DNA of 64,000 nt from a virus: positions 1 to 64,000 of IMG/VR virus record IMGVR_UViG_3300041585_000108, one strand, 5' to 3'. Both the position numbers and the translations under genes were made by a program. This document shows positions 1,793-33,700 of this stretch, piece after piece; positions within the stretch are counted from its first letter, which is position 1, and each line of letters starts with the position of its first letter. The notes below the pieces were generated by a model that did no database searches, had not been told where the DNA came from, and was given only the letters and a program-made list of their open reading frames with translations.

Positions 1793-2125
1793 TTATCCAA
1801 AAGAATCACCACAAGCACAAGACCCACCAGCGTTTGGATTATCAATAGTAAATCCTATTTTCTCAATAGTCTCTACATAGTCCATAGTAGATCCCTCTAA
1901 ATAAGGCATAGACATTTTATCTATTCTGATATCAAACCCAGTAGTATAGGGCATAACTATATCTCCTTCTTTAATCTCGTAATCAAAGTAGGTCTGATAT
2001 CTTAGTCCAGAGCACCCACCTGGCTGTACAGACAATCGCAAAAATTGTTTTTTGTCTGGTGTTGTAATTTGTGATTCTTTAATTAGTTCTGCAACTTTCA
2101 TTTCAGCAGCGGTAGTTAAAATCAT
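1793..2125 (-). CDS. A-type iron-sulfur carrier/insertion protein (HesB/IscA/ErpA family)
   Basis: 110 residues, the usual length of the family. All three cluster-binding cysteines are present: C38 in QPGGCSGLRYQ, and C103 and C105 in GGSCACGDSFG. A-type carriers pass Fe-S clusters from a scaffold such as SufB to target proteins. Its start overlaps the last of the cysteine-rich microproteins (ATGA). Together with sufB at the left edge it forms a partial Fe-S assembly set in one rightmost-to-leftmost operon; candidate clients in this window are the Cas4-like nuclease and WhiB. I cannot tell from sequence whether ErpA, IscA or SufA is the best name. Confidence 0.9.
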   Translation of the reverse strand: MILTTAAEMKVAELIKESQITTPDKKQFLRLSVQPGGCSGLRYQTYFDYEIKEGDIVMPYTTGFDIRIDKMSMPYLEGSTMDYVETIEKIGFTIDNPNAGGSCACGDSFG

Positions 2126-2214
2126 TTGTTCTCCATATCATCATCCATTGCACCACAACTAACACAAGTTACTTGTCCATCTAAGTCTATTTCATACTCG
2201 CAGGCATGTGTCAT
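2122..2214 (-). CDS. cysteine-containing microprotein (30 aa)
   Basis: 30 residues beginning MTHACEYEIDLDGQVTCVSC, with a CxxC pair and one further Cys. Start and stop overlap the flanking genes by four bases each (ATGA), so it is probably translated by coupling. Possibly a single zinc knuckle; function unknown. Confidence 0.55.
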   Translation of the reverse strand: MTHACEYEIDLDGQVTCVSCGAMDDDMENK

Positions 2215-2315
2215 GCTTCACACATTAGACATATTAAGTTTCCTGATGGATGAGTTAGTCCTGTTATAAACCACTTCAAACATCTTATGCATTGTATTTT
2301 AGTTAAAGGATCCAT
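2211..2315 (-). CDS. zinc-ribbon-like microprotein (34 aa)
   Basis: 34 residues, MDPLTKIQCIRCLKWF, ending NLICLMCEA. Two CxxC pairs 18-19 residues apart suit one zinc ribbon. GGAGAG lies six bases upstream of the ATG. It overlaps both neighbours. The compact CxxC-CxxC pattern and good ribosome site argue for a real gene. Confidence 0.65.
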   Translation of the reverse strand: MDPLTKIQCIRCLKWFITGLTHPSGNLICLMCEA

Positions 2316-2466
2316 CTTCTCTCCTTATCACCCTTTTAGTTTCGTTAAAACATATGTCACATATGCCTTTATATAAGTAGTCCCCCTGAATTTGTTTTTC
2401 TATATTTATTAGTTTTCCAGGAACATTTCCTTTGCAGGAATAGCAGTATGCATTAAACTCAATCAA
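2299..2466 (-). CDS. zinc-ribbon-like small protein (55 aa, TTG start)
   Basis: 55 residues with CYSC near the N-terminus (C8, C11) and CDIC at C36/C39, then a basic segment NETKRVIRRE. This is a typical two-CxxC zinc ribbon. Start TTG at 2466 overlaps the preceding stop; AGGGA lies about eleven bases upstream. Overlaps the next gene by 17 bp. Confidence 0.65.
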   Translation of the reverse strand: MIEFNAYCYSCKGNVPGKLINIEKQIQGDYLYKGICDICFNETKRVIRREDGSFN

Positions 2467-2563
2467 GGGTATCTATATCCCTGTAGGGGCATACAGCATG
2501 CGCTAACTGGCAGCCAGTATTGTGTTCTGGACTACATACCTTACATGTCTTAGGAGTGTCCAT
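2459..2563 (-). CDS. cysteine-rich microprotein (34 aa)
   Basis: 34 residues, MDTPKTCKVCSPEHNTGCQL then HAVCPYRD. CxxC plus two further Cys and two His could bind one metal. GAGGAG lies ten bases upstream of ATG 2563, within the end of the previous gene. Confidence 0.55.
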   Translation of the reverse strand: MDTPKTCKVCSPEHNTGCQLAHAVCPYRDIDTLD

Positions 2564-2639
2564 AGTGGGCTAACTCCTCAAGGCATGTCTCACACAAACA
2601 ATCAAGTGTGTCTATTATAACGCTAGTCATCTCTGTCAT
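2550..2639 (-). CDS. cysteine-containing microprotein (29 aa)
   Basis: 29 residues, MTEMTSVIIDTLDCLCETCL then EELAHYGHS, with three Cys and two His. It overlaps the membrane microprotein before it (ATGA) and the next gene by 14 bp. Function unknown. Confidence 0.5.
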   Translation of the reverse strand: MTEMTSVIIDTLDCLCETCLEELAHYGHS

Positions 2640-2734
2640 TTGTGCTTCTTTCTCTCAAGGTGATGCAATATATTTAGGTAGGTGTTAATGGCTATTAACG
2701 ATAGTATGCCTAATTGAATTAGATGCGATGTCAT
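2636..2734 (-). CDS. single-pass membrane microprotein (32 aa)
   Basis: 32 residues: a hydrophobic run LIQLGILSLIAINTYLNIL followed by the basic tail ERKKHK, as in a small membrane-anchored peptide. The ATG overlaps the upstream stop (ATGA), and its own stop overlaps the next start. Function unknown. Confidence 0.5.
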   Translation of the reverse strand: MTSHLIQLGILSLIAINTYLNILHHLERKKHK

Positions 2735-3117
2735 TCAAAGTCTACCTGTGTCTCAAAAATATTTTTTTCTTTAATTCTCCAAGCATCCCCAGTTAATGGA
2801 TCTTCATGCCAATGATATTGCCAATAAGCATTACCTTTTGAGTCATAATCATCCCACTCAGCCTCTGCCATATCTTCTTTTAAATCTTTTAGCCATCCAT
2901 CCATGTCTATTTGATACAATGTTGACCAACAAGATGAAATTAAATCAGATATCTTCCAGGCTTTGGAATAAAAACGGTATTTAAATCCATAGTCCTGATC
3001 TTCATCTAAATAAACAGCCTTTAATAAACAAGTGCTACCAATAGAACTAATGTAGTTAGATACCCATCGCAGTGGCAGGATCTTAGTCCTGTGTACTATC
3101 ATTGAGTGCTTCAACAT
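2731..3117 (-). CDS. hypothetical acidic, aromatic-rich protein
   Basis: 128 residues, not recognised. The C-terminal half is acidic and rich in Trp and Tyr (AEWDDYDSKGNAYWQYHWHE). GGGGGA lies four to five bases before ATG 3117. It is the first gene downstream of the promoter at 3212-3240 and heads the chain of overlapping small genes that ends at sufB. Confidence 0.65.
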   Translation of the reverse strand: MLKHSMIVHRTKILPLRWVSNYISSIGSTCLLKAVYLDEDQDYGFKYRFYSKAWKISDLISSCWSTLYQIDMDGWLKDLKEDMAEAEWDDYDSKGNAYWQYHWHEDPLTGDAWRIKEKNIFETQVDFE

Positions 3118-3254: not shown

Positions 3255-3926
3255 CTAATCGTAATTTTTTCTTTTCCATGATGTTTTTTTATACCAATCT
3301 TTTGCCTTTGATCTTCTATATTTTTTTGAGCTTTCAAACAATCCTATTTCTATTTCTGTTTTCCATGAGTCATTGCCAAATGGAATTATTTGAGCTACTG
3401 GGGTTCCAGCTTTTATTACTCCCTCAAATCCTTGTTTTACATAAAATGGTATTGCTCCATGAGGAATTAAAGTAAACTCTCCATCTATTACTCCACTTAA
3501 TGTTGTAAATGGAAGATCATGTCTGTTTAATGGATGAGTAAATAGAATGCTTGCCCCCGTGGGTATGGTTAAAGCAGTGCATAAATCCCAAGCAAATTCT
3601 GTGCTATAGTGATTAAATGGAATAATTGAAATGCTTTCTGCATCTCTAGTAGAACCATTGTATATACTTCCGTCCAATAATTTAATTTCTGGGTTTTTAT
3701 TACTACAAATAACTTCTATGTCATAGGGAAGGCTTACGATATACCCAGTTAAAAATGCATCTAAAAAGGGCATACATTTTTTTAAACTATTAATTTTTTC
3801 AGATTTGTACCACTCTGGTATAAAATTTTTAGATGGGAGTATAGAATCTTTTTGTAAAGATTCATACTTTATTATGTATTTTGACAATTTAAGTCTAATT
3901 TGAAGATAACGATATACTGCTTTCAA
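3255..3926 (-). CDS. conserved phage protein of unknown function (beta-rich)
   Basis: 223 residues. Segments such as ASILFTHPLNRHDLPFTT, GAIPFYVKQGFEG and AGTPVAQIIPF resemble a conserved phage/bacterial family of unknown function that I cannot name with certainty. The gene at 27444-28148 shows the same pattern in its second half (PAGTNIACILPI), so the two look like distant paralogues. Start TTG at 3926 lies inside the end of the peroxidase gene, with GAGG three bases away; this close spacing makes the start uncertain. Confidence 0.65.
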   Translation of the reverse strand: MKAVYRYLQIRLKLSKYIIKYESLQKDSILPSKNFIPEWYKSEKINSLKKCMPFLDAFLTGYIVSLPYDIEVICSNKNPEIKLLDGSIYNGSTRDAESISIIPFNHYSTEFAWDLCTALTIPTGASILFTHPLNRHDLPFTTLSGVIDGEFTLIPHGAIPFYVKQGFEGVIKAGTPVAQIIPFGNDSWKTEIEIGLFESSKKYRRSKAKDWYKKTSWKRKNYD

Positions 3927-4356
3927 CTTCCTCTATTGTGGTATGAGGAGGCATAAATTTAATAGTGTCATTAGCCACTATAAATTTACTAAAATTCCAA
4001 GGGATACTTTCTAGATTAGATTTTAAAGCTAAATGTTTAAATAACGGATGAGAATCTTCGCCATTAACATCAATTTTTTTTGACATTAAAAAGCTAACAC
4101 TATAATTTTTTTGACAAAAATCTTTAATTTCTTCATCTGTTCCAGGCTCTTGTGAGTTAAATTGATTGCAGGGAAACCCCACTATGACCAATCCCTGATC
4201 TAAATATTTTTTATGCAGCGACTGCAAGCCTTCGTACTGTTCTGTAAAACCACAATTACTAGCAACATTTACTAGCAACAAAATATTATCTTTAAATTTA
4301 GATAAATTAACAATATTGTTATTGTTGTCTGTAAAACTATAATCATAAATTGACAT
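3895..4356 (-). CDS. glutathione peroxidase family protein
   Basis: 153 residues, full length for a bacterial GPx. Family motifs are clear: LLLVNVASNCGFTEQYEGL with peroxidatic C35, GFPCNQFNSQEPG (C63, Gln69), and WNFSKFIV with W120 and N121 completing the Cys-Gln-Trp-Asn tetrad. The family reduces hydroperoxides, usually with thioredoxin in bacteria; the phage also encodes a thioredoxin. Start ATG 4356 with AAGGATT upstream and a consensus promoter at 4398-4426. Uncommon in phages. Confidence 0.92.
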   Translation of the reverse strand: MSIYDYSFTDNNNNIVNLSKFKDNILLLVNVASNCGFTEQYEGLQSLHKKYLDQGLVIVGFPCNQFNSQEPGTDEEIKDFCQKNYSVSFLMSKKIDVNGEDSHPLFKHLALKSNLESIPWNFSKFIVANDTIKFMPPHTTIEEVESSISLSSN

Positions 4357-4652: not shown

Positions 4653-4784
4653 TTATCCCATGTGTTTAAAATGAAAATGATCTTCGCATACATTTATAAT
4701 TTCACCAGTTTTTAATTCTGGCTCACTGTATTTGCTATCTTCCAAGCAATAAAAACATGGGGGGGTATTTGTGTCCATAACCAT
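4653..4784 (-). CDS. small zinc-ribbon-like protein
   Basis: 43 residues from ATG 4784 (an ATG at 4778 is an alternative): PPCFYCLED then INVCEDHFHFKH, giving CxxC and CxxH. It lies between the oxygenase gene at 4796 and the CCxxC gene at 4649. Function unknown. Confidence 0.6.
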   Translation of the reverse strand: MVMDTNTPPCFYCLEDSKYSEPELKTGEIINVCEDHFHFKHMG

Positions 4785-4795
4785 ATTATATCAGA

Positions 4796-5371
4796 TTATT
4801 CTTTATCATAAAAAGAAACTGGATGCTCATAAATATATGTTTGAGTCATATATCTATTTCCATTTAATATTTCTAAGACTTCGTGCTGTTTATCACTTGG
4901 AAAAATTACCATTGACCCAGCTTTTGGCTTTATGCATAGATCATCATGGATAAAATCAATCTCTCCCCCAACATAGTCATCATTTATATATAAAATTGCA
5001 GTTAAAGATGGCTTAACATTATTTCCATCTTTTTTTACATAGCTATATGCATCACTGTGAGCAGACATTTTAGATCCAGCATTGTATTCTCTAACTAAAA
5101 GCCAGTCGTGACCAACGTTATCATCGTTAAAGCTTAAACCATTACATAAAGAATATTCTGCTACGCAATCAAAAAATGTTTTAATAATTTTTGAATGTAG
5201 TTCCTCTCCTTTATGCAATATTGCAGCACGACCGATTATTGTTTCTCCGCCACCTTTATTTGTATAATATTCCCACCTGTTTTTTTGAATAGAATCAATA
5301 AACTCATTTGAATTTTCTAAAACATTGTGCCATTGCCATATTCCATTTTTTTTATTAACCACTTTATTCAT
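4796..5371 (-). CDS. 2-oxoglutarate/Fe(II)-dependent oxygenase (P4H-like)
   Basis: 191 residues. The jelly-roll signature is present: HSD in KMSAHSDAYSY, then LYINDDYVGGEIDFI, KPKAGSMVIFPS, QHEV as the distal His and GNRYMTQ with the 2OG-binding Arg. The family hydroxylates proteins, nucleic acids or small molecules using Fe(II), O2 and 2-oxoglutarate; the substrate here is unknown. It overlaps the upstream DUF1660-like ORF by eight bases. One of four such polypeptides in the window. Confidence 0.88.
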   Translation of the reverse strand: MNKVVNKKNGIWQWHNVLENSNEFIDSIQKNRWEYYTNKGGGETIIGRAAILHKGEELHSKIIKTFFDCVAEYSLCNGLSFNDDNVGHDWLLVREYNAGSKMSAHSDAYSYVKKDGNNVKPSLTAILYINDDYVGGEIDFIHDDLCIKPKAGSMVIFPSDKQHEVLEILNGNRYMTQTYIYEHPVSFYDKE

Positions 5372-5492
5372 TATTTACCTCTACTGTAGTTGAACATCTT
5401 TCACAATAATTGTATTTTTTCCCAGTAAAAGGGCATGATCCAGCTTCTTTAAGAGCATGACCTTTTATCTTACAAAAAATAAACTTAATCAA
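5364..5492 (-). CDS. DUF1660-like small zinc-binding phage protein
   Basis: 42 residues, TTG start at 5492 overlapping the kinase stop. FCKIKGHALKEAGSCPFTGK followed by YCERC is the pattern I associate with DUF1660 prophage proteins (CKxxGH...CPF...CERC). Likely one zinc site. Function unknown. Confidence 0.7.
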   Translation of the reverse strand: MIKFIFCKIKGHALKEAGSCPFTGKKYNYCERCSTTVEVNNE

Positions 5493-6031
5493 TTATTTTC
5501 CTTTATTATTTCATTAATTATACTATTTAATTCTAGCACACCATGATTATTAATCAAGGTATTGTCAAATTTATAGTTATCTAGATCTGTTTCGGATGGA
5601 TGACCAGTAACTGGACCAACATCCTTTCGAATAATTCTCCAAATTTTTCCACCTTTGGACCTTATTGCATCTGCTTCATTTTTAAATCTAACATCACTGA
5701 TTACAACTTTTTCATTTTTGATATTATTTAACACAATATCAACCCAAAAATTTTCTCCAAACAGATCTCTTCCAACTTCTGTGCCAAAAACTTGAAGAAG
5801 CCTACGAATTTCTGGAACAGACTCTTTAGCTTTGTCTAAACCGTATACGTCTACAATATTTTTATATCTAAGGCTACTAATTTCATCTACCTTTACTATG
5901 GGGTTTAGCCTATACATTGCTTCTTTCATTGGAGCCGCAAAGGACATTTTAATAAACTCATTATGCTTTATTAAATAATCTGCAACAGTATCTTTGCCAG
6001 ATCTAGCATATCCACTTAAGCCAATAATCAT
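5489..6031 (-). CDS. deoxynucleoside monophosphate kinase-like P-loop kinase
   Basis: 180 residues from ATG 6031, which overlaps the upstream stop (ATGA); an upstream ATG at 6049 is less likely. P-loop GLSGYARSGKDTVADYL at the N-terminus, then LLQVFGTEVGRDLFGENFWV and VISDVRFKNEADAI, the pattern of phage dNMP kinases of the T4 gp1 type. It would phosphorylate dNMPs to support phage DNA synthesis. The substrate range cannot be read from sequence. Confidence 0.85.
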   Translation of the reverse strand: MIIGLSGYARSGKDTVADYLIKHNEFIKMSFAAPMKEAMYRLNPIVKVDEISSLRYKNIVDVYGLDKAKESVPEIRRLLQVFGTEVGRDLFGENFWVDIVLNNIKNEKVVISDVRFKNEADAIRSKGGKIWRIIRKDVGPVTGHPSETDLDNYKFDNTLINNHGVLELNSIINEIIKENN

Positions 6032-6525
6032 CTTTTTACGCCATCCCATGTTCCTATTTTAGTTGTAGGTATTCCATTAGATTCCCATAGATTAATGATG
6101 TCTGGGTTATCGTCTACTGCATGCTTTACATCCCAATACTCATTAATTTTTTCTAAAATTTCTTTTTTTATTTCGTAATCTGATCTAAAGTCATTTTCTT
6201 TTCTCATAAACAATGCGTCGTGAGGCACATTATTATTTTTTAGCCACCTAGATGTAAGTGCCCTATAATTTTCATTTCTTGCAGTCACTATAACAATATC
6301 TGAATCATTACATGCTGACCAAACCATGTCAATAACTTCTTTATGGGGGTCACAATTAATTGATTCTGTGTGAAACATATCATAGTATTTTTTAAATGAC
6401 TCGTGTTCTCTATCTTTATTGGTTATCCAGTGAATTACAGAATCTACATTGACTAAAGTTCCATCTACATCAAATATCCAACAATGCTTTTTTTTAATTT
6501 TTTTCTCTTTTCTTTTTTGTATCAC
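6028..6525 (-). CDS. HAD-family phosphatase, polynucleotide 3'-phosphatase-like
   Basis: 165 residues from GTG 6525, four bases beyond the 3' end of tRNA-Lys; a longer frame from 6552 would run into the tRNA. HAD motif I WIFDVDGTL, motif II VIVTARNE, and the late acidic motif AVDDNPDIINLW match the phosphatase domain of T4 PseT-type enzymes without a kinase domain. It could repair 3' phosphates on RNA or DNA, which would suit its place beside tRNA genes, or be a nucleotidase. Confidence 0.8.
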   Translation of the reverse strand: MIQKRKEKKIKKKHCWIFDVDGTLVNVDSVIHWITNKDREHESFKKYYDMFHTESINCDPHKEVIDMVWSACNDSDIVIVTARNENYRALTSRWLKNNNVPHDALFMRKENDFRSDYEIKKEILEKINEYWDVKHAVDDNPDIINLWESNGIPTTKIGTWDGVKR

Positions 6526-6528
6526 CAG

Positions 6529-6601
6529 TGTCCCCAGATGGGCTTGAACCATCGACCCGCAGATTAAAAGTCTGCTGCTCTACCAACTGAGCTATAAGAA
6601 C
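6529..6601 (-). tRNA. tRNA-Lys (anticodon TTT)
   Basis: 73 nt cloverleaf: acceptor GTTCTTA with TGGGGAC, anticodon stem GCAGA/TCTGC around loop CTTTTAA, T arm GATGG-TTCAAGC-CCATC. No encoded CCA. Reads AAA/AAG, abundant codons in this A+T-rich phage. Confidence 0.93.
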
Positions 6602-6605
6602 ATTG

Positions 6606-6678
6606 CTGTCCCACCAGGCCTCGATCCTGGGACATCCAAATTAACAGTTTGGCGCTCTACCAACTGAGCTATGGGACA
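6606..6678 (-). tRNA. tRNA-Asn (anticodon GTT)
   Basis: 73 nt cloverleaf: acceptor TGTCCCA/TGGGACA, anticodon stem CCAAA/TTTGG around CTGTTAA, T arm CCAGG-ATCGAGG-CCTGG. Lies four bases upstream of tRNA-Lys and shares the promoter at 6688-6716. No encoded CCA. Confidence 0.93.
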
Positions 6679-6687
6679 TTTAATAAT

Positions 6688-6716
6688 ATTATACTATTTT
6701 AAAAAAAATTAGTCAA
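6688..6716 (-). promoter_or_regulatory. promoter for the tRNA-Asn/tRNA-Lys pair
   Basis: TTGACT (6716-6711), 17 bp, TATAAT (6693-6688) on the minus strand; predicted start near 6681, three bases before the tRNA 5' end at 6678. Confidence 0.85.
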
Positions 6717-6719
6717 TAG

Positions 6720-7379
6720 CTATTCATCGCTTACTGGCTTATAGTTAATTAATTCTAAAATACGATCAGAATCAAATCCTTCGAAAGCTTTTTCTTTATC
6801 TGATGTAGCCCAAAAGATTATTGCATATTTATTTCCAGAAGTAATTCTTTTCCCACCATGCCATAATCCTGATGGGAATAAAGAAAGCGAGTTAGCTTCT
6901 GGCTTAATGCAAACTCCACCCATAGAGTTTTCATATAATGGGAAAGATGATTCTGAAGTAAACTCTTCTAAAAATGCAGCCTCTCCGCCTTCATAATCAT
7001 CATTAAGATAAAGGACTCCGCTATAAGACAAAGATGGGAAGTCTCCGTGAGCATCTTGATGAATTCTTAACTGTATGTCCTTGCTAAGTTTTGTTAATGA
7101 AAATCCATAAAAATATTGAGTTTCATCTGAGGGCAAATGACTAGATTGGTTTTCCATAAACTTGTTTGCATATTTCATGCATATTCCTTCTATGTCTTTA
7201 AAAAGAGTTGCTGGTTTTTCATCTGGAAAAACTGCTCTGACCGCAAGCCCCTTATTAAAAGCAATTCCTATTCTATGCCTAAACTTAGACTTATCTGAAG
7301 AGTTTTCATCAATCCAGTTTATAAAAAACTTTGCATCTTCTTTACTTATAAAGTCTTTAATCATTTTTAGTTTATCCAT
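6720..7379 (-). CDS. 2-oxoglutarate/Fe(II)-dependent oxygenase
   Basis: 219 residues. HQDAHGD supplies HxD, then LYLNDDYEGGEAAFLEEF, CIKPEANSLSLFPSG, LWHGG (distal His) and SGNKYAI at the 2OG-binding position. Same fold class as 4796-5371 but clearly different in sequence, with a longer insert between strands. Its start overlaps the end of the double-dioxygenase gene upstream, suggesting joint expression. Substrate unknown. Confidence 0.88.
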   Translation of the reverse strand: MDKLKMIKDFISKEDAKFFINWIDENSSDKSKFRHRIGIAFNKGLAVRAVFPDEKPATLFKDIEGICMKYANKFMENQSSHLPSDETQYFYGFSLTKLSKDIQLRIHQDAHGDFPSLSYSGVLYLNDDYEGGEAAFLEEFTSESSFPLYENSMGGVCIKPEANSLSLFPSGLWHGGKRITSGNKYAIIFWATSDKEKAFEGFDSDRILELINYKPVSDE

Positions 7380-8517
7380 TTTTGATATCCTTTTCTTTTA
7401 TATTTGTTGCCCATATTGGCATTGCTATTCTTATTCCTGATAAAACTTTTGTTATTTCATGCAGTTCAGTAGAGTCAAAAATAACAAGGCTGCATTTTTT
7501 TGGATCAATAGTAATATTTTTATTTACAAAATTTAAATAACCTCCGTCAAAATCTTCATTTAAATAAATTACACCACTTCTAAATAAGTGTTCTGCTCCT
7601 ATATGGTTATCCGCATGCCCTGGAAGTCTAGTCCCTGGTCCTAACATTGTAAGCCATTGTGCTGCTAAATATATTTTTTCATCATCTTTAAAAAAATTAT
7701 TACACTCTAATAAAAATTTAGTAGAGTATTTTTCTAACAAATGTGAAATTTCTGGATGAACAGAAGGTTTATGTATTTCTGGCATTGCTGACTCATATCT
7801 AATTCTATTACTTTCTATAGCTTTTTGAGGCCTATAAAATCTTGTTTCATCTTTATTATTTAATTTTATATAATCTACAATAAAATCAGAATCTTTTTCG
7901 TCTATAAAATTTTCTATTATTTTAATCTTTATATTTTTAGGGGCTAATTTAATTGTTTTTATTTCGCAATTTGGCATTATGTCTATTAACAAATGAACTC
8001 TGTCTAAATCGCTATTATTTTTTACGCTATGAAGGTTAAGGTTATTTATTTCATAACAATCTCCTTGCTTCATGTGTATTTCTTCTTCGCCTACTGTATA
8101 ATAAACTTCCTCATTTGTTATTATGGGTATGTGAAATCTTCTTACTCTAGATAAATAGTCGCCACTGTCTTTGTGAGCAAAAACTTCGCTTTTAGCATTT
8201 AGTTTGATTAAAAGAATCCTTGCCGATTGACCAAACATTATTTCTTCTAGCTCTTTTACTATATGAGAAAAAAGATAAAAAGTTTCTTCATCTTTCAGCT
8301 CTTTTGAAAACAAAGTGCCTCTTTCCCAATGTAGAGAAGAGTCTTGAATTATGTATGTATTTGTATTTACATGAGGATTTGGTCTGCCTTTGTAAACTAT
8401 GCTTTGTCTAGAAACTTCAATGTCCCACTCAGACAAAAAATTTTTAACTTTATTGTTTAATTCTTTTATGTCAAAAGATTTAAGTAATTTAAAATTAAAA
8501 TTAATTTTGTTTTTCAT
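7372..8517 (-). CDS. fusion of an aspartyl/asparaginyl hydroxylase-like domain and a 2OG-Fe(II) oxygenase domain
   Basis: 381 residues. The N-terminal half has AHKDSGD (HxD), VRRFHIPIITNEEV, EIHMKQGDCYEINNLNLHSV and DRVHLLIDI, as in AspH-type cupin hydroxylases (distal His in NLHSV, Arg in RVHLL). The C-terminal half is a separate prolyl-hydroxylase-like domain: PGHADNHIG (HxD), VIYLNEDFDGGYLNFV, DPKKCSLVIFDS, LHEI (distal His) and SGIRIAMP. Two complete dioxygenase active sites in one chain is unusual. The stop overlaps the next oxygenase gene, and the start overlaps the sulfotransferase gene. Confidence 0.85.
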   Translation of the reverse strand: MKNKINFNFKLLKSFDIKELNNKVKNFLSEWDIEVSRQSIVYKGRPNPHVNTNTYIIQDSSLHWERGTLFSKELKDEETFYLFSHIVKELEEIMFGQSARILLIKLNAKSEVFAHKDSGDYLSRVRRFHIPIITNEEVYYTVGEEEIHMKQGDCYEINNLNLHSVKNNSDLDRVHLLIDIMPNCEIKTIKLAPKNIKIKIIENFIDEKDSDFIVDYIKLNNKDETRFYRPQKAIESNRIRYESAMPEIHKPSVHPEISHLLEKYSTKFLLECNNFFKDDEKIYLAAQWLTMLGPGTRLPGHADNHIGAEHLFRSGVIYLNEDFDGGYLNFVNKNITIDPKKCSLVIFDSTELHEITKVLSGIRIAMPIWATNIKEKDIKNG

Positions 8518-30709: not shown

Positions 30710-33700
30710 TTTATTTCCTTTACATTTAATGTTCCATCATCTAGGGTAGACAATACAACCTTACACTTCATTCCTTCTCTCATCTTGGCCAATGTCATTT
30801 TGTACATAGTGGGGAAAGCAATTGCTCTTGTTAACTCTTTATGCTTATTAGATAATACAATATGACTCATTGTTTTTCCAGCTTTTGTAACGTATGGAGT
30901 AAAATTTACGACTATATATTCATCTTCTTCTAAGTCGTATTCTTTTTTATAAAGATAGTCCACGAACATATCGTTTGAAGATGGATCAATCTCTGATACT
31001 TTTATGTATCTAGCTATTCTATTATCTCCAACCAAAATAAAATACATCTGTCCAATTTCAATTTGTGTTTGCTCATTATGAAATAAACCAATTGTGCCAG
31101 TCTCATCAACAAGCTCTACTCTTGCCCATCCAGACCCTCTTTTAATTGCTTTAACCATTCCAAACATAACAAAGGAGCCTAAATCATCAAAATCTTCAAT
31201 AGGTCTAGCTTGAGCCTTTACTCTTGGCGGAATTCCTTCTAGATTAAATGTTGGTATTCCTAAGTATTCGTAGTAGTTATCTTTCTCATTGCCAATTCGC
31301 TTATTATCCTTAAAAGCAGCCCCACCAATATTATTAAGAGCAGTAATGGCCCTACTATTAATCCCGCTGCCTTTGGCTGAAGCCTTTTGAACAAAATTGG
31401 AATAGCTTTCGTATGGTCTTTTTTCTATTATTTTATTAGCTATATTGTCAGAAATAAATTTAATTTCTGCAAGACCAAATCTAATTGAATCTTTTTGCAA
31501 AGAAAAGTACAGGTTAGACTCATTGATATGAGGAAGAAGAACCTTAAGCCCAAGTCTTTTAGACTCAATTAAATACTCTGTCCTTGCATCTTTATCATTT
31601 TCATTTTTAAGAATAGAAAACATAAACTCAAGCGGGTAGTGCTTCTTAAGCCACGCAGTGTAATAAGATAACATTGAGTAGGCTACCGCATGTGAACGGT
31701 TAAAAGAATAGCCAGCATGTGCTTCAAAGTCTTGCCAAAGCTTTTCTGCTTTTTTTCTTGTAACATGGCTTGATGCACCATTAATAAACTTATCTTTAAA
31801 CTCATCAAACTCTTTAACATCTTTTTTCTTACCAATAATCTTACGAACTTTATCTGCTTCGGACCAAGACATACCGCCAAGATAAACACAAGCTTGCATA
31901 ACCTGTTCTTGATAAATAATTACACCATATGTATTTTCAATAAAAGGCTTCATGATTGCATGCATGTAATCAACTGCCTCATTACCATTTTTTCTTGCAA
32001 TATACGAAGCCCCAACAGTGTTCATGGCTCCTGGGCGTACCAAAGCATTTGATGCAATAAGATCTTCAAATTTGTCTGTACCCATTTTTATTAAAAGGTT
32101 TGTGTATGGTGTTGCTTCTGCTTGAAACACCCCCTTGGTGTATCCTTCGCTAAGCATCTTATATACTTCTGGATCTTCTAAAGATAGGGCAGAAAGATTT
32201 ATATCTTTTCCAGTTCTTTTTTTAATAGACTTTAATGTATCAGAAATTACTGATAAAGTTTTAAGTCCAAGGGCATCCAGCTTAATAAGACCGATGTCCG
32301 CAACCGTATCCATGTCATAAGCAACAACTGGTATTCTTCCAGAAACTTTATCTTGGGAGTCTTCTCTTGATTCTACTGGCGCAAATTTTCTAAGAGCATC
32401 TTTAGCAACAACTACTCCAGCAGCATGAACTCCAACAGATCTAATTCTTCCTCTTAGTCTATCGGCTAGCCAAACAACTTCTGGGTATTTTGCTCTAAAC
32501 TCTTTTGTATTTGGTGATGAAATAAAATCTTCAAAAGTGTCAATTGATTTCATTGCACGATTTACTTCCTGTAAAGGAACCATAAAAATACGTGCAGCAT
32601 CTCTAATTACACCCTTATCTTTAAAATAAGTGTAGGTTGAAATAGAAGCAACATGCTTAAACTTTTTCTTTAAATAATCTTTGACTTCTTTTCTTCTGCG
32701 ATCTTCAAAGTCTGTATCGATATCTGGAAAGTCATTGCGCTCTGGGTTAATAAATCTAAAAAACAGTAGATCATATTTAATTGGATCTACGTCTGTTATT
32801 CCTAGTGTGTAACATACCAATGAGCCTGCTGCCGATCCTCGTCCTGGACCAACTCTAATGTCATTTGTTTTTGCCCAGTTAATCATATCAGCAATAACTA
32901 AAAAATAAGATGCAAAGTTTTTAGATGCAATCACACCAAGCTCTTCTTGTACTCTATCAATATAAACTTGATTATCTCCAAAGCCTAGGGAATTTAATCC
33001 GTCATAAGCCATATCCCTTAATTTTTCATCTGCATCTGTTTTAGGAACAGGAAGAAGATCTAAATTTTGATTAAAATCGTAGTCTCCAATTTTATCTGAT
33101 ATCTCTATAGTGTTTTCATAGATGTCTGTTCTTGTTATTCCAGCCTTATTAAAATCAGACTCTATCTCAGAACGACTTTGAATAAATAAATTCATATCTT
33201 GAAAAGAAATTCTACGATCTGGATAAAGGTAATTAAACCTTTCCATCATATCTTTTATGTTACGAGACATATCAAAATCAGAGTCTTTGTCTATTTTGGG
33301 TGAAGTAGAAAGAATAAGTAATGCTTCTTCAAGAACTCTATCTTCTTCTTTAGCAAAATGTGCGTCACCTGTTGCAACAGATTTAATCCCTAGCTCATCC
33401 GCTAAATCTAATAAAGCATTATTTATTTCTAGCGGATTGTGAGATTGTACCTCAACATAAAAATCTTCTTGAAAAGTTTTCTTAAAGTCTTTGAGCATAA
33501 GTCGTGCTTCAGACATATCTCCTTTAGCAATAGCCTTGCTAATAAGTCCATTAAGACATCCAGACAATACAATAATGCCTTCTGCATATTCCCTCAAAAT
33601 TTCTTTATCTATACGAGGCTTATGATAAAAACCTTCGTTCCACGCAATTTCTTGCAGAGTATTAATGTTTTCTAAACCTTTTTTGTTTTTAGCCAACAAT

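Follow-up and report, generated by a model that had tools for sequence, protein, structure and literature searches.

Several described systems come close to the locus reported here. The DNA-binding zinc ribbon of the repressor NrdR has the cysteine spacing C-x2-C-x24-C-x2-C, and DUF5679 (PF18930) is a small zinc-ribbon-like domain. Phage genomes are known to hold small-protein genes of unassigned function in abundance, with over 2 million found (PMC11323111). Marine viral genomes are known to encode A-type Fe-S carriers as sufA/iscA auxiliary genes (PMC5332604). Our locus resembles phage small-protein genes generally in its dense, short accessory genes, and differs from them in its single-copy, carrier-switching C-terminal peptides, of which no description was found in the literature searched. 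A full-text search, outside which most subscription papers lie, returned nothing relevant to the tail sequence itself. The likeness to the marine viral genomes is that the gene after the last microgene is an A-type carrier, and carriers are what that report concerns.

The window, i.e., the whole stretch of DNA that was analysed, comprises bases 1-64,000 of a 75,318-base viral record. The virus infects uncultured freshwater bacteria, and its host is probably actinobacterial, as the presence of a WhiB gene suggests (PMC10202952). Its genome also encodes 2OG-Fe(II) oxygenases, glutathione peroxidase and thioredoxin; several of the oxygenase genes lie at 4796-8517 on the minus strand, one of them fused to an Asp/Arg hydroxylase domain, and the glutathione peroxidase gene lies at 3895-4356. 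The features of the locus, in order of transcription, are as follows.

2731-3117, minus strand: up128, gene 1 of the eight-gene string, a helical protein ending KNIFETQVDFE-stop
2731-2757, minus strand: coding sequence of the tail FETQVDFE plus stop, the C-terminal end of up128
2636-2734, minus strand: mp1, 32 aa, single membrane segment, kept only in near relatives L001 and L002
2550-2639, minus strand: mp2, 29 aa, CxCxxC + HxxH, only in L001 and L002
2459-2563, minus strand: mp3, 34 aa, CxxC+H+C+H+C (four Cys, two His), only in L001
2299-2466, minus strand: mp4, 55 aa, predicted zinc-ribbon microprotein, TTG start, two CxxC
2211-2315, minus strand: mp5, 34 aa, CxxC...CLxC, upstream ribosome-site-like AAGGAG
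2122-2214, minus strand: mp6, 30 aa, putative zinc head HxC...DxDGQVTCxxCGAMDDD, short untagged end here
1793-2125, minus strand: IscA/ErpA-type Fe-S carrier (PF01521, E 3.9e-16)

The original prediction, made from the letters of the DNA, was that six small open reading frames between 2734 and 2122, each overlapping its neighbour by 3-17 bases, form a chain leading into the carrier gene. All six are present at these positions, and the overlaps were correct to one base (4-17 nt), being 4, 4, 14, 8, 17 and 4 nt with the preceding gene from mp1 to mp6. Since the first of these overlaps is with up128, the string begins one gene earlier than first noted; with a further 4 nt shared by mp6 and IscA it is an eight-gene string (up128, mp1-mp6, IscA) of which the six microgenes form the middle. 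Sequences resembling ribosome sites stand before mp5 (AAGGAG) and before IscA (GGAG), and the TTG start of mp4 is supported because the N-termini of its homologs agree. Five of the six proteins had been called cysteine-rich and one a single membrane segment, and so we find them: Cys/His sets occur in mp2-mp6, while mp1 has a single hydrophobic stretch, with a Kyte-Doolittle mean of 1.76 over its best 19 residues. Upstream, at 4653-4784 and 5364-5492 on the minus strand, there are two further Cys-rich microgenes whose homologs adjoin mp4 in other phages; the one at 5364-5492 resembles DUF1660 (E 0.003).

The six frames are real in the sequence, far beyond chance. Against 1000 dinucleotide shuffles, none of which matched either value, the observed chain of six ORFs spans 613 nt (longest shuffled same-strand chain 459 nt) and its long ORFs hold seven CxxC motifs (shuffle mean 0.27, maximum 3), a count equalled nowhere else in the window on either strand. 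That the array consists of functionless chance or decaying ORFs is therefore very improbable, the more so given the ATGA overlaps, the ribosome sites, and the invariant cysteines and family-level purifying selection described below; for mp4-mp6 this explanation is already largely refuted. What speaks for it is that mp1-mp3 are without divergent homologs and that some differences between near relatives are non-synonymous.

Two contigs are near-identical to the window across the array region. L001 has all six frames, and at 835-960 it holds a second mp5-family gene. L002 retains mp1, mp2, mp6 and IscA without mp3-mp5, and at the gap it keeps the mp2 stop, the mp6 start and a 9-residue piece from the first codons of mp3, for which deletion is the simplest reading. 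Further afield, homologs of mp6 were found in 237 viral contigs, and 21 and 27 unique members of the mp4 and mp5 families, respectively, in other viral contigs. Median pairwise dN/dS was 0.21 for mp4, 0.27 for mp6, 0.28 for mp5 and 0.42 for T, a membrane-plus-ribbon gene discussed below, with 0.10 for IscA as a comparison. Both CxxC pairs of mp4 and of mp5 (four Cys each) are invariant in the family alignments, as is the CxxC of mp6, whose first pair varies (HxC, CxH, HxH and others). By their dN/dS values mp4, mp5 and mp6 are under purifying selection. Conservation of the frames in related phages, free of disrupting indels, on which the original prediction depended, thus holds for these three; mp1-mp3 were seen only in two near-identical relatives, one without mp3, and no distant homologs of them were present among the loci fetched. 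Because they are without divergent homologs, mp1-mp3 could be young or neutral. A 12-kb megablast query found no match among phage records, and a search of 50,697 such records yielded nothing significant for either mp6 or mp4.

The cysteine sets look like structural zinc ribbons, as predicted from sequence and model. Both mp4 and mp5 have two invariant CxxC knuckles, the mark of a structural zinc ribbon. The model of mp4, at a mean pLDDT of 85, shows a zinc ribbon of four strands, and the cysteine spacing is C-x2-C-x24-C-x2-C. Weak profile matches link mp5 to aIF2-beta/S27e ribbons and mp6 to ribosomal L32. DUF5679 was matched by 9 of 20 mp4 family members (best E 0.001) across its whole 40-position profile; however, the best score listed was 16.3 bits, far below the Pfam gathering cut-off of 27, and the window's own mp4 gave no match to the domain. 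The mp4 model also overlays NrdR zinc ribbons with TM-scores of 0.54-0.60, at non-significant Foldseek E values of 0.25 and above. This overlay and the equal cysteine spacing, together with the weak ribosomal and initiation-factor profile matches, would suit nucleic-acid-binding regulators, with mp4 acting like the DNA-binding ribbon of NrdR. We consider this unlikely: the ribbon fold is common, mp4 shows no significant sequence match to NrdR and lacks its ATP-cone (at 55 aa it ends after the ribbon), and mp6 is acidic (DDD).

The position of the array directly before an Fe-S carrier had suggested a role in metal handling. Predicted metal binding is indeed likely, since the cysteine pairs of mp4 and mp5 do not vary and neither does the CxxC of mp6, but the link to Fe-S proved weak. 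The carrier itself scores above the family cut-off (PF01521, 59.7 bits against 26.3) and has its three conserved cysteines C38, C103 and C105 in place (C...CxC). Gene neighbourhoods were counted in 79 mp6 loci gathered independently of IscA, and only five of these had IscA at a distance of 600 bp or less. Most IscA loci are without mp6, and where both are present mp6 usually comes after IscA, not before it. T is directly downstream of mp6 in 31 of the 79 loci, followed by mp5 in 16, so that the commonest unit is mp6-T-mp5, kept in tight order and occurring without IscA; across related phages the microgene families appear in many combinations and orders. The IscA link is particular to a few lineages, and we infer that in this lineage IscA is a passenger neighbour, not the reason for the array. 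An array for metal or Fe-S handling, whose products would bind iron, zinc or clusters and would supply or control IscA and the phage iron enzymes, could draw on the 4-nt coupling of mp6 to IscA, on the five Cys-rich proteins and on the several 2OG-Fe(II) oxygenases, WhiB, thioredoxin and glutathione peroxidase of the phage. These counts, and the two-knuckle CxxC...CxxC layout and mp4 model that suit structural zinc, make such a function quite unlikely.

Beyond their heads, the proteins of these loci share exchangeable ends. Homologs of mp6 combine a constant head, DLDGQVTCxxCGAMDDD, with several distinct ends, namely FExQ[V/I]DFE, ...NVIE, ITPxxGPNR and DFDExGIPYWDK. The first of these, FExQ[V/I]DFE-COOH, is the terminus of seven or more mutually unrelated small proteins (BLAST gives eight clusters, some with one or two members), including mp6, the MSIDEM family (57 aa), up128, a SAM decarboxylase (PF02675) and other small proteins; it was seen in the window at 2731-2757 (minus strand) and in L007, L014, L143, L188, L161, L224, L265 and L283. 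In loci not selected by the tail, QVDFE and QIDFE are the top C-terminal 5-mers common to unrelated ORFs. The full pattern has a single match in the 75-kb record, at the end of up128, and a shorter pattern has one further site, at 33168 on the plus strand. The up128 family, with homologs in other fetched loci, gave a 25-member alignment; its AlphaFold model has two long helices and a disordered last 8-residue block (mean pLDDT 43), and Foldseek found no match for it. The SAM decarboxylase of L188 (2825-3256; PF02675, E 3e-13) ends FEAQIDFE, and the mp6 of that record is also tagged.

A second exchangeable tail, ITPxxGPNR-COOH, occurs at L161:97-327, L178:2734-2925, L257:4483-4707, L263:612-770 and L280:7644-7847, carried by mp6 and, in tail-selected loci, also by an mp5-type protein and others. 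Proteins of the up128 family, mp6 and other small proteins have a third stretch in common near their ends, DYDExGxxYW[DE]K (window about 2813-2850, minus strand; L153:4977-5198; L180:6004-6222).

The codons of the FExQ[V/I]DFE tail vary synonymously, so the constraint on it acts at the protein level, and we rejected the idea that it works through its DNA, as a ribosome site or a coupling site. It is likewise no hitchhiker of a fixed downstream gene, since the downstream genes differ. That it copies the end of an actinobacterial host protein is unsupported: 257 billion bases gave eight near-chance matches, none titled as an actinobacterium. A possible resemblance of the tail to sliding-clamp motifs, or to the tails of ribonucleotide reductase R2, is a lead.

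The tail is usually present once per record. Although the counts that follow ignore shared ancestry and many records may be fragments, 23 of the 31 mp6-bearing records (the window's included) have FExQ[V/I]DFE, 22 of them exactly once, and among records selected by the tail 47 of 49 have exactly one copy and two have two, so that three records in all carry a pair. Another 17 records, chosen by way of other genes, all lack the tail; one of them (behind L037) does have mp6. ITPxxGPNR was found in nine records, one copy each. Furthermore, the carrier switches: where mp6 is tagged its MSIDEM partner is not, and vice versa. Where mp6 and the MSIDEM family co-occur in loci not chosen by tail, mp6 is tagged in four and MSIDEM in eight, with no locus tagging both or neither (Fisher p 0.002, on counts that again disregard ancestry); over all such loci the tail is on mp6 in 11 and on MSIDEM in 11, with one double. 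The window fits this one-carrier rule, its mp6 being untagged and up128 in the same string tagged. Tentatively, then, FExQ[V/I]DFE-COOH, and likewise ITPxxGPNR-COOH, may be stand-alone docking peptides of which about one copy is needed per phage, on interchangeable carriers (zinc-ribbon microproteins, a helical 57-mer, up128, SAM decarboxylase). This pattern also bears on the proposal that the microproteins inhibit individual host proteins, each acting on a target of its own without any common tail logic. Phage small proteins are known to affect host processes (reviewed in PMC11323111), and the fast turnover of mp1-mp3 and the loss of mp3-mp5 in one relative would fit, but a single-copy peptide that moves between unrelated carriers is left unexplained, and we regard the proposal as improbable. 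Inhibition of host proteins as such would fit with the reading that we prefer.

Our preferred reading, to which we give a probability of roughly 0.5, is that of a polycistronic microgene array in a phage accessory operon, whose products would be zinc-ribbon adaptors, with docking peptides present in single copy. Each microprotein would consist of one module only, a membrane segment or else a small ribbon with structural zinc, and would be translated from a shared mRNA by coupled re-initiation. Through its zinc head a protein may act as a compact adaptor for some macromolecule of host or phage; the short, disordered peptides at C-termini, for example FExQ[V/I]DFE (on up128 here and on mp6 elsewhere), would all dock to the same partner. 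Where gene ends overlap, recombination could move heads and tails between genes, with selection holding each tail peptide at about one copy in a genome. Four parts of this reading, namely structural zinc, coupled translation, adaptor function and tail docking to a common partner, are what we infer from sequences, models and counts.

An overlooked run of microgenes is now tied to families in hundreds of uncultured phage contigs. The array microproteins are part of the large phage small-protein pool, in which zinc-type heads are kept and short end-peptides are traded, each usually occurring once per genome. If the tails are truly docking peptides, they would indicate a single conserved hub, in host or phage, that a synthetic octapeptide could retrieve, and would mean that phages evolve small proteins by trading end-peptides between genes.
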